A stretch of 44,678 nucleotides of DNA. Source: Spirosoma sp. Lineage in GTDB: Bacteria > Bacteroidota > Bacteroidia > Cytophagales > Spirosomataceae. The notes beneath the pieces were generated by a model. The model made no database searches, had not been told where the DNA came from, and saw only the letters and a program-made list of their open reading frames with translations. Shown piece after piece: positions 11,152 through 42,195 of the stretch; position 1 is the stretch's first letter; each line of letters opens with the position of its first letter. Where the stretch lies: positions 1-44,678 of the forward strand of contig JACMPG010000247.1 in the NCBI GenBank assembly GCA_014377625.1, in the 5' to 3' direction. Made by a program: the position numbers and the translations under genes.

Positions 11152-12129
11152 TCATTTGAACCCCAGTACCTGCCGTACCCGGTCGATGGTTTGACGGGCC
11201 ACGGCGCGGGCTTTTTCTTCGCCCGCCCGGAGTTCGGCTTCCAGCGCGTCGGGGTGTTCGGTCATAAAATAATTAAATCGTTCGCGTTCGGTGGCGTAGT
11301 TGTCCCGGAGGAGTTCAAAAAGTTCTTTCTTGGCTGATCCGTAGCCGTAGCCACCCGCTTCGTAACGGCCGCGCAGCGTCCGTATCTGCTCGTCCGACGC
11401 CACCAGCGAATACAATTGAAATGTACTATCAGTATCCGGGTTTTTCGGTTCTTCGAGCGGGGTCGAGTCCGATTTTATCTTTTTAACAACCTTGTACAGT
11501 TCATTTTCGGGTAAAAAGATGTCGATGTAATTATTGTACGACTTGCTCATTTTCTGCCCGTCCAGTCCCGGAATGGTCATAACCCGCTCGTCGATGCGGG
11601 CTTCGGGGATGGTCAGAATTTCGCCGTACTGCCGGTTGAAGGCCGAGGCTACGTCGCGGGTGATTTCGAGATTCTGCCGCTGATCTTTCCCCACCGGAAC
11701 GATATTCGCGTTGTATAAAACGATGTCTGCCGCCTGCAAAATGGGGTAGACAAACAGCCCGCTGTTCACGGAGCTAACCGCCATCTTTTCGGTTTTTTCC
11801 TTGAAGGCCGTGGCGTTTTGCAGCATGGGCATGGGCGTGAAGCACTCCAGATACCAGGCCAGTTCGGTGTGCTCGGCCACCCGCGACTGCCGCCAGAAGG
11901 TGTTCCGCTCCGTATCCAGCCCGAACGCCAGCCACGCTGCCGCTACCGCCCGTGTAAACTCCCGGCGCGTTTCGCCGTCGCGCAGCGAGGTCAGCGAATG
12001 CAGGTCGGCGATAAAGAAAAACGAATCGTTGCCGGGCTGTACCGACAGGTCGATGGCGGGTTTGATGGCCCCCAGAATATTGCCCAGATGCGGACGCCCG
12101 CTGGACTGAATACCGGTTAAAATTCTCAT
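11152..12129 (-). CDS. trpS: Tryptophan--tRNA ligase
   Basis: A 325-residue class I aminoacyl-tRNA synthetase of normal length. It starts MRILTGIQSSGRPHLGN, with the HIGH-equivalent PHLGN at residues 13-17, and has KMSKS at 193-197. Specificity pointers for tryptophan include the family segments FIADLHSLTS, VYPILQAADIVLYN and VPVGKDQRQNLE. It charges tRNA-Trp in the cytosol. It is the second gene of a minus-strand run after maeB, separated from it by a 116-base gap filled by a palindromic 8-mer array, so shared transcription is possible but not certain. Confidence 0.97.
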   Translation of the reverse strand: MRILTGIQSSGRPHLGNILGAIKPAIDLSVQPGNDSFFFIADLHSLTSLRDGETRREFTRAVAAAWLAFGLDTERNTFWRQSRVAEHTELAWYLECFTPMPMLQNATAFKEKTEKMAVSSVNSGLFVYPILQAADIVLYNANIVPVGKDQRQNLEITRDVASAFNRQYGEILTIPEARIDERVMTIPGLDGQKMSKSYNNYIDIFLPENELYKVVKKIKSDSTPLEEPKNPDTDSTFQLYSLVASDEQIRTLRGRYEAGGYGYGSAKKELFELLRDNYATERERFNYFMTEHPDALEAELRAGEEKARAVARQTIDRVRQVLGFK

Positions 12130-12132
12130 TAT

Positions 12133-12245
12133 TAAGTTGTAAAGTCGTAGAGTTGTAAAGTTATAAAGTTATAAAGTTGCGTCCCGATCCGTTGACGCGC
12201 CAGCCAACTATATAACTCCATGACTTTACAACTTTACAACTCTTT
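12133..12245. repeat. Inverted array of 8-mers (TTRTARAG), copy 1
   Basis: The left half, 12137-12176, is five consecutive 8-mers (TTGTAAAG, TCGTAGAG, TTGTAAAG, TTATAAAG, TTATAAAG) followed by TTG. The right half, read on the opposite strand, is again 8-periodic: TTGTAAAG, TTGTAAAG, TCATGGAG, TTATATAG, TTG. The two halves face each other across a GC-richer centre (CGATCCGTTGACGCG). The array fills the maeB-trpS gap, starting four bases after the maeB stop. A second copy is at 40986-41120. Confidence 0.75.
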
Positions 12246-14513
12246 TTATTTCCCCTGTGCTTCGACCACCGCGATGGCGACCATGTTCACGATTTCGCGC
12301 TCCGACGAGCCAAGTTGCAGGACGTATACGGGTTTGCGGATGCCGAGCAGAATCGGGCCGATGGTGTCGAAGCCCGCAGCTTCGGCCATGAGGTTGTAGG
12401 CAATATTGGCCGCCGACAGGTTCGGGAAAATCAGCGTATTGGCCCCCTCGCCAACGAGTTTGCTGAACGGATGGTTTTGTTCGAGCAGTTCGGTGTTGAA
12501 GGCTAAGTGCGCCTGAATTTCGCCATCCACGACCATGTCGGGGTGTTTACGCTGTAAAATCTCGACTGCCCGGTTCATCTTCTCGGCATCGTCGCCTTTG
12601 GCACTGCCGAAGTTGGCGTACGTAACCAGGGCAATGCGGGGCTTTATGTTGAACCGCTCAACGGTTTTGGCGGTCATCTCGGTAATCTCCACGATCTCAT
12701 CGGCGGTGGGGTTGAAATTGACCGTGGTGTCGGAGAAGAACAGCGGGCCGCGCTTGGTCAGCAGGATGTACATACCTGCCACCCGTTGTACGCCCGGCTC
12801 CTTGCCAATGATTTGCAGGGCGGGCCGGATCGTTTCGGGATATGAGCTGGTCAGGCCCGAAATCAGGGCATCGGCTTCGCCCGTTTCCACCATCATCGCG
12901 CCGAAATAATTGCGGTAATACATCAGTTTCCGCGCTTCGGTAGCGTTCACGCCCTTGCGCTTGCGCTTGTCGAAGTACAGTCCGGCAAATTTGGTAATCA
13001 GGGCATCCTGCTCTTTGGCGCGGGGGTCGATGATCGGAATCTGGCCGAGGTCAAGGTTATTATCGCGGATGATTCTCTGGATTTTAGCCGTTTCGCCGAG
13101 CAGAATGGGGTGGGCAATGCCTTCGTCGCGCACTTGCTGGGCGGCTTTCAGGACTTTCAGGTTTTCGGCATCGGCAAAAACAACGCGCTTGGGGCTGCTC
13201 TTCGCCTTATTGAGAATCACCCGCGAAATCTGATTGTCGTGGCCCAGCCGCCGGGCCAGTTGCATTTCGTAGGCGTCCCAATCCTGAATCGGCATCCGCG
13301 CCACGCCCGACTCCATAGCCGCCCGTGCCACTGCCGGGGCTACCGTAGCCAGCAGACGCGGATCAACGGGTTTGGGCAGGATATACGTCCGGCCAAACAG
13401 GATGTTATCCTGCCCGTAGGCCAGATTCACAATGTCGGGAACGGGTTTTTTAGCAAGGTCGGCCAGGGCGTAGGTAGCCGCCAGTTTCATGGCTTCGTTG
13501 ATCTCCGTAGCCCGCACGTCGAGGGCACCCCGAAAAATGTAGGGAAAGCCCAGTACGTTGTTCACCTGATTGGGGTAGTCTGAGCGGCCCGTAGCCATGA
13601 TGAGGTCGGGGCGCGCGGCCATGGCGTCTTCGTAGCTGATTTCGGGCGTCGGGTTGGCCATCGCGAAAACAATCGCATCAGCTGCCATCGACCGGATCAT
13701 GTCGGCGTCTACAATGTTGCCCCGCGAAAGACCCACCATGACATCGGCGTTTATAAACGCTTCGGCAATGGATGCAATGGCGCGATTAGTGGCAAACGGG
13801 CGGGTAATGTCGTTGAGATCGGTGCGGTCGGCAGTGAGGCAGCCGTTTACGTCGAACATCACGATGTTTTCGTAGGCTGCGCCGAGGGCTACGTACTGCC
13901 GGGCGCACGAGATAGCGGCTGCGCCGGCTCCCAGAATAACGAACCGGGTCGTTTCTATTTTCTTGCCGACCAGCACCAGCGCGTTGAGAAGGGCGGCACC
14001 GCTTACAATGGCCGTACCGTGCTGATCGTCGTGCATGACCGGTATGTTGAGTTCGGCACGCAGCCGGGTTTCGATCTCAAAGCATTCGGGAGATTTGATG
14101 TCTTCCAGATTGACCCCGCCGAAGGTCGGCTCCAGAATCTTTACCGTCCTGACAAACTCGTCGGCGTTGTGGGTGTCGAGTTCAATATCGAATACGTCGA
14201 TGTCGGCGTATATTTTGAACAGCAGCCCTTTGCCTTCCATGACGGGTTTGCTGGCTATGGCGCCAATATCGCCCAGGCCCAAAACGGCAGTACCGTTGCT
14301 GATAACGCCCACCAGATTACCCTTGGCGGTGTATTTGTAGGCATCGTCGGGGTTGGCTTCAATGGCCAGACACGGCTCGGCCACGCCCGGCGAATACGCC
14401 AGCGAGAGGTCGCGCTGCGTACTGTATTCTTTGGTCGGCACCACTTCGAGTTTACCGGGACGCCCTTTGGCGTGGTATTCGAGGGCGTCTTCGCGCCGTA
14501 TTTTCTGTTGCAT
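12246..14513 (-). CDS. maeB: NADP-dependent malic enzyme with phosphotransacetylase-like C-terminal domain
   Basis: 755 residues from the ATG at 14513 (MQQKIRREDALEYH); the 23-codon upstream extension is not conserved-looking. The N-terminal malic domain has SLAYSPGVAEPC and GNLVGVISNGTAVLGLGDIG, followed by DDQHGTAIVSGAALLNAL. The Rossmann NAD(P) domain has VILGAGAAAISCARQY. From about residue 430 a phosphate acetyl/butyryltransferase-like domain continues to the end; in MaeB proteins this domain is regulatory rather than catalytic. The enzyme oxidatively decarboxylates malate to pyruvate, supplying NADPH and feeding gluconeogenesis or lipid synthesis. Full length for the family. Confidence 0.95.
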   Translation of the reverse strand: MQQKIRREDALEYHAKGRPGKLEVVPTKEYSTQRDLSLAYSPGVAEPCLAIEANPDDAYKYTAKGNLVGVISNGTAVLGLGDIGAIASKPVMEGKGLLFKIYADIDVFDIELDTHNADEFVRTVKILEPTFGGVNLEDIKSPECFEIETRLRAELNIPVMHDDQHGTAIVSGAALLNALVLVGKKIETTRFVILGAGAAAISCARQYVALGAAYENIVMFDVNGCLTADRTDLNDITRPFATNRAIASIAEAFINADVMVGLSRGNIVDADMIRSMAADAIVFAMANPTPEISYEDAMAARPDLIMATGRSDYPNQVNNVLGFPYIFRGALDVRATEINEAMKLAATYALADLAKKPVPDIVNLAYGQDNILFGRTYILPKPVDPRLLATVAPAVARAAMESGVARMPIQDWDAYEMQLARRLGHDNQISRVILNKAKSSPKRVVFADAENLKVLKAAQQVRDEGIAHPILLGETAKIQRIIRDNNLDLGQIPIIDPRAKEQDALITKFAGLYFDKRKRKGVNATEARKLMYYRNYFGAMMVETGEADALISGLTSSYPETIRPALQIIGKEPGVQRVAGMYILLTKRGPLFFSDTTVNFNPTADEIVEITEMTAKTVERFNIKPRIALVTYANFGSAKGDDAEKMNRAVEILQRKHPDMVVDGEIQAHLAFNTELLEQNHPFSKLVGEGANTLIFPNLSAANIAYNLMAEAAGFDTIGPILLGIRKPVYVLQLGSSEREIVNMVAIAVVEAQGK

Positions 14514-14624
14514 ACGATTCAGTTTGCAGGTGGTTTTGTTGTGCGAGTCAGGACCGCGAAGGTACGGAAACGGGCCATGCAACCGAAATCCAACAACCGA
14601 AAGGCAGAGTATCTTTCCTGATGC

Positions 14625-37866: not shown

Positions 37867-40800
37867 TCAGACGGCAACTGGTTCGGGCTCTGGTTTTGAT
37901 ACATCCGGCTGCGTTTCGCCCGGCTGTTTGTCTTTTCGGCGACTTAAATATGTATAAATAACGGGTACCACATACAGCGTCAATATGAGCGAGAACAGTA
38001 GCCCGCCCACGATGACAATACCCAGCGGTACGCGGCTTTTGGAGGCTGATCCCAGCGCGAGGGCCAGCGGCAGCGCACCAAAGGCCGCTACGAGCGTGGT
38101 CATGAGAATGGGGCGCAACCGCAAAGCCGCCGATTCGGTAGCGGCCTCAAACCTGTTCTTACCCAGCAGCCGCTGCTCGTTGGCAAATTCCACGATCAAA
38201 ATCCCGTTTTTCGTGACCAGACCCACCAGCATGATAATGCCAATCTGGCTAAAGATATTCAGCGTCTGATTAAACATCCAGAGCGAGAATACCGCCCCGG
38301 CCAGGGCCAGTGGCACGGTAATCATGATGATGAAGGGATCAATGAACGAGTCAAACTGGGCGGCCAGAATCAGATAGACCAGAATCAGGGCCAGCCCGAA
38401 GGCAAACAGCGTGTTGGACGAACTCTCGGCGTAGTCGCGGGAGGGGCCGGAGAGGGCGGTCTGGAAGGTTGGGTCGAGCGTGCGGTCGGCAATGGCCTGC
38501 ATGGCCGCTACGCCGTCGCCGATGGTTTTTCCCGGAGCTAATCCTGCTGACACCGTAGCCGACTTGAACCGGTTGTAATGATACACCTGCGGGGGGCTGC
38601 TCACTTCCTGAAACTTAACGAGGTTATCCAGTTGAATCAACCGCCCTTCGTTGGTACGGACGTAGAGCGAAGCCAGATCTACGGGGGCGTCGCGGTCGGC
38701 GCGGTCCACCTGCCCGATCACCTGATACTGCTTGCCATTCATCAGAAAATAGGCCAGTCGCCGGTTACTCAGGGCCAGTTGCAGCGTTTGGGCCACGTCC
38801 TGCACCGATACGCCCAGGTTGGTGGCTTTTTCGCGGTCGATGCTGATGTTGAGTTCGGGCTTATTGAATTTCAGGTCCACGTCCGAAGTCTGGAAGGTCG
38901 GGTCTTTCTGCACTTCATCCAGAAAGGTGGGCAGTTTTTCGCGCAGTTTCTCAAAGTTCAGGTTCTGGATCACAAACTGTACCGGTAGCCCACCACCCCG
39001 TCCTACCTGAATGGTCTGATCCTGGGTAGCAAAAATGCGGGCTTCGGTGAATTTGCGCATGCTTTTGTTCAGGTAATCAACTATATCCTGCTGCGATCGG
39101 CCACGCTCTGAGGGATCAGTCAGGTTATCGAATACGAACGAATTGTTGACGGCTCCCGCGCCCGAAAAGCCGGGGGCTACCACACTAAACGCCAGCTTGG
39201 TTTCGGGAATCGAGTCGAGCATAAACTGCATGACCCGGTCGGTAAGCTGGGCCTGGGGTTCGTAACTGGTGCCTTCGGGCGAGGTGATGATTACACGGGT
39301 CCGGCTGCGGTCTTCCAGCGGAGCCAGCTCCGATTTGAGCAGCGAGCCAATGCCAGCGATCATGGCCAGACACACTCCAACCATCACCAGTGCCAACCAG
39401 CGTGTTCGCATGAATCCCGTCAGTGACTCGCGGTACGACTGGTCGAGCCAGGCAAAGAATGGTTCAGTTTTTTGGTAAAACCAGGAGCGGTAATTGTGGT
39501 TTTTGCGGGTCATTTTCACGCTCAGCACCGGCGTCAGCGTCAGCGATACGAAGGCTGAGATCAGCACCGCCCCGGCCACCACCACGCCAAACTCGCGGAA
39601 GAGCCGCCCCACAAACCCTTCGAGAAAAATAATGGGTAGAAACACGACGGCCAGCGTAATACTGGTGGCTAAAACAGCGAAGAAAATTTCGTTGGCTCCT
39701 TCGCGGGCGGCTCGCTGCGGCTCCATGCCGCCCTCTACTTTCTTGTAGATATTCTCCGTTACCACAATGCCGTCATCAACCACCAGACCCGTGGCCAGCA
39801 CGATAGCTAACAGTGTTAACACGTTGATACTGAAGTCAGCTATGTACATAATGAAAAACGCGCCAATCAGCGAAACTGGAATATCGATCAGGGGCCGGAA
39901 GGCGATAAGCCAGTCGCGGAAGAAGAGGTAGATGACCAGCACGACAAGTACAAATGAGATGAGCAGGGTTTCGCCTACTTCTTCAATGGCCCGCCGGATA
40001 AACACCGTCCGGTCGGTACCGATTTTAACGATCAGGTCGGGGGGTAGGTCGCTCTTGATCCCATCGAAGCGTTTATAAAACTCATCGGCAATACTGACGT
40101 AGTTGGCACCGGGTTGCGGAATCAGGACGACAATGACGCCCACCACGCCATTCTGCTTCGAGATGGTTTCTTCGTTTTCAGCACCGAGGGTAGCGTAGCC
40201 GATGTCTTTGAACCTGACAATCTGGTTACTGGTCTGGCGCAGAATCAGATCATTGAAGTCTTTCTCACTGGTGAGCCTGCCAACCGCTTTAACGGTTAGT
40301 TCGGTGGTGTTGCCATAGACTTTGCCACCCGGTAACTCCACGTTTTGTGCCGTCAGGGCAGCCTGAATATCCTGGGTGGTAAGGCGGTAGGCCGATAGTT
40401 TGATGGGGTCGATCCAGAGCCGCATGGCCTGCCGTTTGAGTCCGTAGATATTCACCTGACTCACGCCCGGAATGGTCTGTACGCGCTCCTGAAGCACATT
40501 CTCGGCATAGTCCGAGAGTTGGGTGGCGTTGCGGGTGGTACTTTGCACGTTCATAAAAATGATCGGGTCGGAGTTGGCATCGGCCTTGCTCACTACCGGG
40601 GGAGCGTCAATATCCTGCGGTAGTTGCCGCTGCGCCTGAGCTACCTTGTCGCGTACATCGTTGGCGGCCCGTTCCAGGTCGGCGTCGAGGTTAAACTCGA
40701 CCGTGACCGAGCTAACGCCGAGGGCCGAGTTGGACGAGATGGTCCGGATGCCTTCGATGCTGTTGAGCGATTTCTCGATGGGTTCGGTAATCTGCGACTC

Positions 40801-40977
40801 AATAATTTCGGGGTTGGCACCGGTATAGCTGGTACGTACCGAAATAACGGGCGGGTCGATGGCCGGGTACTCCCGGACGCCCAGAAACGTAAAGCCAATG
40901 ATGCCGAAGAGGACGATGACAATCGACATCACCATCGCAAAAACGGGCCGGTTCAGACTCAGCTCAGGAAGACTCAT
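37867..40977 (-). CDS. RND family efflux pump inner-membrane subunit (AcrB/MexF-like)
   Basis: A 1036-residue protein of full RND length. It starts MSLPELSLNRPVFAMVMSIV (TM1), has two large periplasmic loops and 12 membrane segments. TM4 carries the proton-relay aspartates in ATGLVVDDGIVVTENIYK; the position after DD is glycine where most HAE1 pumps have alanine. Other landmarks are FREFGVVVAGAVLISAFVSL and LVGLVTKNGILIVEFANEQR. It is a multidrug or solvent exporter working with the adaptor encoded just upstream. No TolC-type channel gene is in the window. It ends in a charged, proline-rich tail. Confidence 0.95.
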   Translation of the reverse strand: MSLPELSLNRPVFAMVMSIVIVLFGIIGFTFLGVREYPAIDPPVISVRTSYTGANPEIIESQITEPIEKSLNSIEGIRTISSNSALGVSSVTVEFNLDADLERAANDVRDKVAQAQRQLPQDIDAPPVVSKADANSDPIIFMNVQSTTRNATQLSDYAENVLQERVQTIPGVSQVNIYGLKRQAMRLWIDPIKLSAYRLTTQDIQAALTAQNVELPGGKVYGNTTELTVKAVGRLTSEKDFNDLILRQTSNQIVRFKDIGYATLGAENEETISKQNGVVGVIVVLIPQPGANYVSIADEFYKRFDGIKSDLPPDLIVKIGTDRTVFIRRAIEEVGETLLISFVLVVLVIYLFFRDWLIAFRPLIDIPVSLIGAFFIMYIADFSINVLTLLAIVLATGLVVDDGIVVTENIYKKVEGGMEPQRAAREGANEIFFAVLATSITLAVVFLPIIFLEGFVGRLFREFGVVVAGAVLISAFVSLTLTPVLSVKMTRKNHNYRSWFYQKTEPFFAWLDQSYRESLTGFMRTRWLALVMVGVCLAMIAGIGSLLKSELAPLEDRSRTRVIITSPEGTSYEPQAQLTDRVMQFMLDSIPETKLAFSVVAPGFSGAGAVNNSFVFDNLTDPSERGRSQQDIVDYLNKSMRKFTEARIFATQDQTIQVGRGGGLPVQFVIQNLNFEKLREKLPTFLDEVQKDPTFQTSDVDLKFNKPELNISIDREKATNLGVSVQDVAQTLQLALSNRRLAYFLMNGKQYQVIGQVDRADRDAPVDLASLYVRTNEGRLIQLDNLVKFQEVSSPPQVYHYNRFKSATVSAGLAPGKTIGDGVAAMQAIADRTLDPTFQTALSGPSRDYAESSSNTLFAFGLALILVYLILAAQFDSFIDPFIIMITVPLALAGAVFSLWMFNQTLNIFSQIGIIMLVGLVTKNGILIVEFANEQRLLGKNRFEAATESAALRLRPILMTTLVAAFGALPLALALGSASKSRVPLGIVIVGGLLFSLILTLYVVPVIYTYLSRRKDKQPGETQPDVSKPEPEPVAV

Positions 40978-40985
40978 TTTTTTAA

Positions 40986-41120
40986 AGGAGTTGTAGAGTT
41001 TTTATAGTTATGTGGTTGTAGAGTCATAAAGTTATAAAGTTGGCTGACGCATTCGTGCGGCAGTATCTACCGTGGTTGCCAAGTTTATAACACTGTAACT
41101 CTATAACTTTATGACTTTGT
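40986..41120. repeat. Inverted array of 8-mers (TTRTARAG), copy 2
   Basis: The left half from 40990 reads TTGTAGAG, TTTTTATAG (one base longer), TTATGTGG, TTGTAGAG, TCATAAAG, TTATAAAG, TTGG. The right half, on the other strand, reads TCATAAAG, TTATAGAG, TTACAGTG, TTATAAAC, TTGG. The centre is GC-richer (CTGACGCATTCGTGCGGCAG). The right half runs into the adaptor gene, so the last codons of that gene (N-K-V-I-K-L-stop) are written in repeat units. Copy 1 is at 12133-12245. Confidence 0.75.
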
Positions 41121-42195
41121 TTACCTTAACCGGGGCGTCGGGTTTCAAAAACAATAAACCCGTAACCGCCACGGTATCGCCCGCCGACAGGCCAGCCTGT
41201 ATTTGAATAACGCCCGCCGTCCGTAAACCGGTCTTTACGTCGGTAAAATTGGCTTTTCCGTTTTTGATCACCACGACCTGATTGGTGCGCGTTTGGGGAA
41301 TGACGGCCTGTGTGGGAACGACGAGGCTCCTATCATTCTGCACGGTGAGGGTAACGCGGGCAAACGCGCCGGGTCGAAGCCTCGCCGATGCGTTGTTGAC
41401 CCGCGCCCGGATGCGCAGGTTACGGGTTGCTTCTTCTACCCCCGGTTCAATGGCATATACCACGCCTGTACCGGGCTGATTACTGCCATCCACCTGAAAG
41501 GAAATGGGACTGCCCACCCGTACCGCCGGACCGTATTTTTCGGGAATCGAGAAATCGAGCTTAAGCGATGATATCTGTTGCAGTCGCGCAATGAGCGTGT
41601 TGGGCGATACTACCGCACCGAGGCTCACATTACGCAGCCCGATGACACCCGAAAACGGCGCGCGAATTTCGGTACGCTGGAGGTTGGCACGTACCAGCTC
41701 GATGTCGGCCAGCGACGAACGCAGATTGGTTGTGACAATGTCATATTCCTGCTGGCTGATACCGCCCCGCTCCAGGAGTTGCTTGTTGCGGTCTTCGGTG
41801 CGCCGGGCGTTGTCGGCCTGGGCCTGTAGTTTCTGGAGTTGCGCCCGCAGGTCGGCATCAAAAAGTTTGACCAGTAAAGCACCTTTGGCTATGGGTTGAC
41901 CCTCCCTGATGTTGAGCTGGGTGATACGGGCCGAGATCTCAGGGTAGATATCGACCTGTTCAGCGGCCAGCAGCGAACCGCTGGATACTATATCCTCGCG
42001 CAGGTTTTGTGAGGTCACGATAAATACGCTTACGGCGGGGGAGGCTCCCTGGCCTGCGCCAGCGCCACCTTTGCCGCCGTTTTTACCACCACCTTTACCA
42101 CCATCGGCTCCGGGGGCGGGGTGTAATACTTTGTTGTACACGATAATCCCGCCAAGAACAAGCGCGACGAGACCGAGGGCAATCCATCTTTTCAC
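41101..42195 (-). CDS. RND periplasmic adaptor subunit (membrane fusion protein)
   Basis: 364 residues beginning with a GTG codon at 42195; no ATG is available at that point. One N-terminal membrane anchor (ALGLVALVLGGIIVYNKVL) is followed by a Gly/Lys-rich linker of about 20 residues (GGKGGGKNGGKGGAGAG). The barrel-sandwich hybrid domain (VDIYPEISARITQLNIREGQ; IRAPFSGVIGLRNVSLGAVV), a short alpha-hairpin between them and a membrane-proximal beta domain follow. It links the pump to an outer-membrane channel. The C-terminal codons are supplied by the 8-mer repeat, and the gap to the pump gene is 123 bases. Confidence 0.92.
   Translation of the reverse strand: MKRWIALGLVALVLGGIIVYNKVLHPAPGADGGKGGGKNGGKGGAGAGQGASPAVSVFIVTSQNLREDIVSSGSLLAAEQVDIYPEISARITQLNIREGQPIAKGALLVKLFDADLRAQLQKLQAQADNARRTEDRNKQLLERGGISQQEYDIVTTNLRSSLADIELVRANLQRTEIRAPFSGVIGLRNVSLGAVVSPNTLIARLQQISSLKLDFSIPEKYGPAVRVGSPISFQVDGSNQPGTGVVYAIEPGVEEATRNLRIRARVNNASARLRPGAFARVTLTVQNDRSLVVPTQAVIPQTRTNQVVVIKNGKANFTDVKTGLRTAGVIQIQAGLSAGDTVAVTGLLFLKPDAPVKVNKVIKL

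Follow-up and report, generated by a model that had tools for sequence, protein, structure and literature searches.

Hairpin arrays behind Spirosoma genes: positions often kept, arms apparently rewritten together

Two inverted octamer arrays in the window

The window (the whole stretch of DNA analysed, 44,678 nt) belongs to a draft Spirosoma genome of 378 contigs that is 85% complete. As the preliminary description had it, the gap between the genes for an RND adaptor and its pump is occupied by an inverted array of octamers of the form AGT[T/C][A/G]TA[A/G] (about 40989–41118, from sequence and repeats). A sister array takes up the space separating maeB from trpS (12133–12241), and both copies do lie between co-directional genes, all of them on the reverse strand. 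The features are as follows, with the basis of each in brackets.

11152–12129, minus strand: trpS, a class I W/Y tRNA synthetase (tRNA-synt_1b; family assignment)
12133–12179, plus strand: second copy, trpS-side arm of octamers (repeats, sequence)
12206–12241, minus strand: second copy, maeB-side arm, 4 nt past the maeB stop codon at 12246–12248 (repeats, sequence)
12246–14582, minus strand: maeB-type malic enzyme/PTA gene (family assignment)
37867–40977, minus strand: AcrB-type RND pump gene (family assignment)
40989–41041, plus strand: left arm, on the pump side, made of degenerate tandem octamers AGTTGTAG/AGTTATGT/GGTTGTAG/AGTCATAA/AGTTATAA (sequence, repeats)
41042–41050, plus strand: intact half-core GGCTGACGC, the partner half being degenerate in this copy (sequence, core family)
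41051–41077, no strand: loop or reworked centre of the array (sequence)
41078–41118, minus strand: right (adaptor-side) arm, inverted octamers (sequence, repeats, orthologue comparison)
41101–41103, minus strand: adaptor stop codon TAG, supplied by the array (sequence, orthologue comparison)
41101–42195, minus strand: HlyD/CusB-type periplasmic adaptor gene (HlyD_D23/HlyD_3; family assignment, orthologue comparison)

The pump start codon lies 11 nt from the adaptor–pump array, the arms of which are complementary at 19 of 20 positions in their best ungapped stretch; its predicted RNA minimum free energy is −36.3 kcal/mol, whereas shuffles average −19.3 (z −5.46). The trpS start is 3 nt from the sister array, which folds with a z of −9.75 relative to shuffles. 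Each window copy retains a single recognisable half-core, GGCTGACGC in the adaptor–pump gap and the variant GCGCCAGCC in the maeB–trpS gap, and AGTTRTARAGTTRTAR occurs 35 times in the same genome as against 0 times for its reversed control. Membership of an Rfam family was considered for the adaptor–pump array and rejected: in 40900–41200 nothing exceeded its gathering score, the only matches being miRNA-like (best let-7, 26.9 bits against 53.5).

The preliminary description credited the array with the last codons of the adaptor, N-K-V-I-K-L-stop. The array stretch 41101–41118 reads K-V-I-K-L-stop in the adaptor frame, and the N codon (41119–41121) is outside it. For 30 of the 36 Spirosoma genomes the junction could be compared (30 loci returned; the G012 frame and the G033 pump start are unreliable), and orthologues there usually end in ..PVK(V/I)(G/N)(K/R)VITLPGxGPKVAxN-stop, as against ..PVKVNKVIKL-stop in the window. 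Since K-V-I is also present in homologues that lack the array (G026 reads ..VNKVITLP..), these three residues are native, and the array contribution shrinks to K-L-stop. N-K-V-I is thus common to the window and the array-less homologues, contrary to the earlier claim, while the native end and stop are gone: about 12 native C-terminal residues have given way to K-L, and the protein is about 10 residues shorter than typical orthologues. Judged from these sequences, the window adaptor has lost its native C-terminus and stop codon to the array.

Number, placement and arm types of the hairpins

The array family was followed through a panel of 36 Spirosoma genomes, including the one at hand, and 23 genomes of other genera. 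The octamer pattern was found in 16 of the 36 Spirosoma genomes (own genome included), at least 15 times in each of six, and in 0 of the 23 others. A subfamily with a common hairpin tip, GGCTGACGC...GCGTCAGCC, is present in 28 of the 36, and also in Larkinella and Fibrella. This core gave 301 forward matches (some nested) in the Spirosoma genomes and 4 for the reversed control, although some core sites (e.g. L075, L083 and L086) are without array-type arms and look like chance. A scan of genome contigs for the core found at least 119 stretches; among the 80 listed, palindromic arms of no less than 15 nt flanked the core at 17 of 20 Spirosoma, Larkinella and Fibrella loci and at 0 of 60 loci in other organisms, so that the armed matches listed from outside Spirosoma are those of Larkinella and Fibrella.

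Around one core the own genome has several arm types in different copies. AGT[TC][AG]TA[AG] is found in many of them, GGAG(TTA/CGA/TGA) in most copies of G026 and G035, and GGTATTC/GGTTTAC in several copies of G032. Both core halves contain CGTC/GACG, with no one-ended tag seen in the copies viewed, and the 8-nt half-cores are 11–14 nt apart in the 16 own-genome copies measured. Several cores have loop sequence in common between loci, and their dispersal suggests copying between loci. On a tree of the adaptor junction the array types are partly clustered; the AGTT type needs three changes, and the deep forks are weak. In the arms of four own-genome loci a ATGGTCCGCC-like insert was noticed, one-sided in three (L009, L031 and L035) and mirrored in L030. 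Further repeated palindrome families were seen in one region of G016 (C1:2.6–3.0 Mb, L246–L265), namely GAGACGCAAAGGGTTGCGTCTC, ACCCCACCCCAACCCCTCCCC, ACGGAT arrays and ACACAGAG arrays, and at position 2870107 of this genome a GAGACGC hairpin sits within a GGCTGACGC-like stem.

A census of palindromes with arms of at least 18 nt, made in parts of five Spirosoma genomes (1.477 Mb) with a home-made gene caller, returned 237, as against 0 when this sequence was shuffled once with a first-order Markov model; the same search found 0 in 50 kb of E. coli and 6 in 80 kb of a genome from a different family within the order. The units are short and A+T-rich, which would suit an origin by chance or low complexity, but with these counts and with pattern controls near zero such an origin is scarcely credible. 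Convergent gaps hold 74 palindromes in 23.0 kb (3.2/kb), co-directional gaps 139 in 101.8 kb (1.4/kb) and divergent gaps 9 in 45.0 kb (0.2/kb), with 15 being genic. Further palindromes at gene 3′ ends, a search for which the preliminary description had proposed as a check on the arrays, were found in number, 159 of 213 being no more than 20 nt from a stop codon or overlapping one. A lax periodicity test was passed by 87 of the 237, and the remainder include ordinary-looking terminators and other palindromic families. Among 188 arms of at least 24 nt, the best period at a self-identity of at least 0.6 was 7 in 34, 8 in 15, 9 in 5 and another value in 2. In the periodic class the arms consist of tandem units of 7–9 nt, G-containing and C-poor in the 5′ arm, and each unit has its mirror image in the 3′ arm. 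G exceeds C in the 5′ arm of 79 of the 86 periodic palindromes in which they are unequal, a polarity that is valid on both strands because the arms are symmetrical.

General overwriting of gene ends was considered and rejected for G026/G035, the one species pair compared, as its 84 gene pairs have no extra C-terminal divergence: the mean identity of the last 12 residues was 0.92 for the 36 in which a palindrome lies no more than 60 nt from the stop and 0.86 for the 48 without. In the same pair, 14 palindromes lie over or within 3 nt of a stop codon, and only one of these 14 gene ends looks altered. From the proposal of a mobile family that inserts into gene ends and donates stop codons, what survives is a dispersed family at gene 3′ ends; a habit of inserting into gene ends and donating stops finds no support in this species pair.

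Such a bias towards gene 3′ ends is expected from selection if the elements are RNA hairpins, that is, bidirectional terminators or stabilisers of mRNA 3′ ends (also within operons) whose sequence drifts with compensation. The proximity to stop codons, the excess in convergent over divergent gaps and the strong predicted folds of both window copies all fit this explanation. A scan of 40800–41300 for terminators (hairpin plus U-tract) speaks against it, finding one site, which is outside the adaptor–pump array; the array, 11 nt before the next start codon, gave no signal.

Turnover at orthologous junctions and mirroring of the arms

The maeB–trpS junction was read in 30 of the 34 genomes with a match, with an inverted-repeat z calculated from 20 shuffles each. 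The z was above 3 in 25 of the 30 species, and this retention of position in most species is again what selected RNA hairpins would predict. The units in it vary and, read by eye, include AGTTGTAA, GTGATGA, GAATGATG, GGAGCGA, GGAGGAAAGGGA, GTTTATG and others; clustering by local alignment gave eight groups (single linkage at a chosen threshold, on which the number depends), with the own species standing alone. The inverted repeat was not above z 3 in G022, G023 and G003; that of G014, which is above it, is a short plain palindrome. In G006 (L403) and G009 (L402) the array is absent and the gap is 2–3 nt, a natural empty state for comparison and a point against selected RNA hairpins. At the adaptor–pump junction, z was above 3 in 9 of the 26 gaps of at least 25 nt; two further gaps were shorter, and G033 and G012 were left out of the 30.

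Across 65 orthologous gaps of G026 and G035, a palindrome was found in both species in 11, in one only in 12 and in neither in 42 (Fisher p 2e-5), and for two of six dissimilar best-palindrome pairs a related palindrome was also in the gap. In two species pairs that share G035, 47 of 52 palindromes could be mapped, and every partner palindrome was tested, a score above the 95th percentile of mismatched sites being taken as related. There was a partner palindrome at 39 of the 47 sites and none at 8; 24 of the 39 partners were related in sequence and 15 were without clear relation, one of these being an artefact (99485) and several borderline, with six scoring no more than 11 against the whole partner gap. 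On these sequence comparisons, related species frequently keep the position of a hairpin while the repeats of both arms change. The sites with unrelated partners could reflect repeated insertion at tolerated places.

It may be supposed that the hairpins are non-autonomous mobile palindromes of MITE or REPIN type, moved by a transposase in trans, and that the same gaps behind genes, where insertion is tolerated, receive members of different families. Repeated cores with common loops at many loci, the dominance of certain unit types in some genomes, the 8 of 47 palindromes without a partner and an 82-bp palindrome of G035 at a site at which the flanks of G026 are directly joined are all consistent with this. 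At that single clean filled/empty site no new target duplication was seen by eye. Y1_Tnp matches exist in 29 of the 36 genomes; a driver of the RAYT/HUH kind was nevertheless rejected, as no Y1 transposase was found in two core-rich genomes, G029 (24 cores) and G031 (8), and a paired core was found at 0 of the 30 Y1 loci inspected, five of which carry lone half-core octamers. (At one of these loci, L239, another array is nearby; Y1/RAYT-like genes at L236, L243 and L244 are near unrelated long palindromes and are candidates for true REPtrons.) Viral contigs gave 0 exact matches to one core pattern, and a search of plasmids with one element was negative. The arms differ among copies that belong to a single core family, and the retention of an inner stem with rewritten outer arms, described below, is not plain insertion. 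Mobile palindromes are therefore regarded as an unlikely account, albeit one with several facts on its side.

Loss of the hairpin nuclease SbcCD was also considered as a cause and set aside. SbcD was found in 26 of the 36 Spirosoma genomes, while 10, the own draft among them, gave no match at E up to 1e-10; G026 and G035 possess it and are still palindrome-dense, so there is no simple correlation. SbcD was not found even in single-contig genomes such as G016 and G032.

The two arms of a copy resemble each other far more than they resemble the arms of other copies. Within-copy mirror identity, set against that between left and right arms of different copies, was 0.75 versus 0.47 at 16 of the own genome's 24 core sites, and 0.78 versus 0.42 (18 sites) and 0.79 versus 0.40 (17 sites) in the other comparisons, above all 10,000 permutations each time; restricted to the nine AGTYRTAR-armed copies the margin was narrow (0.795, with the highest permutation at 0.788). 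G025 and G035 are 91% identical over long alignments, and some of their hairpin pairs have kept the inner stem with the outer arms rewritten on both sides. A 15-nt insert is in both arms in G025 and in neither in G035, and in two G035 palindromes the left arm holds an inverted copy of right-flank sequence, of which G025 has the right copy only. In 26 aligned pairs there were 39 double changes that preserve Watson–Crick pairing (20 transversions and 19 transitions) against 9 other doubles. The same pairs have 105 single changes, more than the paired ones, and 57 gapped positions, so the mirroring is not immediate.

If pairing were restored base by base in RNA, G.U mismatches should be favoured in the sense orientation. 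They numbered 40, as against 48 A.C, in 63 periodic palindromes from co-directional gaps; 95 non-periodic palindromes lean weakly to G.U (77 versus 56, p 0.08), as RNA hairpins would. With no G.U preference in the periodic arms and with transversions making up half of the paired changes, selection for RNA hairpins appears quite improbable as the general explanation. The mirror identity, the mirrored insert and flank copies, the paired transversions and the absence of a G.U excess together make copying between DNA arms a better fit to the periodic arrays than compensation of RNA one base at a time. Concerted change of the arms at kept positions likewise suggests arm-to-arm copying rather than a simple jumping element.

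The reading we prefer, and to which we give about an even chance of being right, is that Spirosoma hairpins after stop codons are rewritten by DNA fold-back (template-switch) copying together with slippage, and are tolerated or favoured there. During replication the tract would become single-stranded and the nascent strand would snap back at the hairpin tip and take one arm as template for its partner, a form of template switching or quasi-palindrome correction, with slippage multiplying the 7–8-nt units; inserts in one arm, even native flank, would thereby be mirrored. In the window, this fold-back process, or an insertion followed by fold-back, may have overrun the final adaptor codons. Hairpins could be left behind stop codons if selection removes them from promoters and coding sequence, and would persist there through being tolerated or through a putative benefit that a hairpin brings to the 3′ end of the mRNA. 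We infer fold-back copying from its outcomes, and the mechanism and the dispersal alike from sequence. Fold-back copying does not account for the loop sequence common to cores of different loci, and the uneven plus-strand arm mismatches in convergent gaps of the five genomes (29 G.U, 54 A.C) likewise do not fit it readily.

A wider reading, possible though on balance doubtful, is that of a genus-wide, satellite-like set of self-mirroring hairpins whose position is inherited while their sequence is replaced by fold-back copying and the spread between loci of the units dominant at the time, with a fixed strand polarity, such that they evolve as DNA structures and not as sequences. If so, a large natural archive of hairpins with one arm copied from the other would exist within one bacterial genus. 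To our knowledge such copying is known mainly from reporter genes. There would also be a class of extragenic element conserved in place and shape more than in sequence, so that their escaping similarity searches would be understandable, and a system for telling REP-like function apart from hairpin mutagenesis. It is the turnover of the hairpins that is the part of the finding worth following.

Relation to known repeats and mechanisms

Short tandem units in intergenic DNA are represented in cyanobacteria by the short tandem heptamer repeats (STRR) and small dispersed repeats; the Spirosoma units differ from these in that their array is inverted and mirrored. Bacteria are known to correct quasi-palindromes by template switching. 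Mutations of this kind turn imperfect palindromes into perfect ones (reviewed in PMC7999016); in Spirosoma they are proposed for many hairpins across a genus and would include a mirrored insert and flank copies. In the literature searched, which left subscription journals mostly outside, no published description of these Spirosoma arrays was recognised; the nearest described kinds that were found are REP/REPIN and the CGTC-tagged repeats (PMC3116915; PMC3733652; PMC6006769).

CGTC-tagged REPs are palindromes without a dedicated transposase, reported from phyla that include the Bacteroidetes, and resemble the Spirosoma elements in the GACG/CGTC within the core; the word Spirosoma does not occur in the main text (PMC3733652). 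In CGTC-tagged REPs the tag is at one end and loops are mostly 4 or 5 bp, whereas the Spirosoma motif is inside a symmetrical core with 11–14 nt between half-cores and long variable arms (PMC3733652). Subclass 2.6 of the tnpA_REP genes of Bacteroidetes is associated with atypical secondary structures that have copies elsewhere in the genome (PMC6006769); the Spirosoma Y1 genes inspected differ from it in not being flanked by the core. In common with MITEs, the hairpins are present or absent at orthologous sites (G035 versus G026; 8 of 47 without a partner), but no conserved terminal inverted repeats were found, the outer ends differing between copies of one core family. The likeness to REP/REPIN elements with their RAYT genes (PMC3116915) is that of short, dispersed, extragenic hairpin palindromes in high copy number (237 in 1.477 Mb, 15 genic). 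Because none of the 30 Y1 loci inspected has the paired core, the Spirosoma hairpins are best placed as a variant of extragenic palindromes, distinguished from the elements described there (PMC3116915) by arms that are often tandem 7–9-nt units differing between copies and by turnover at fixed junctions.
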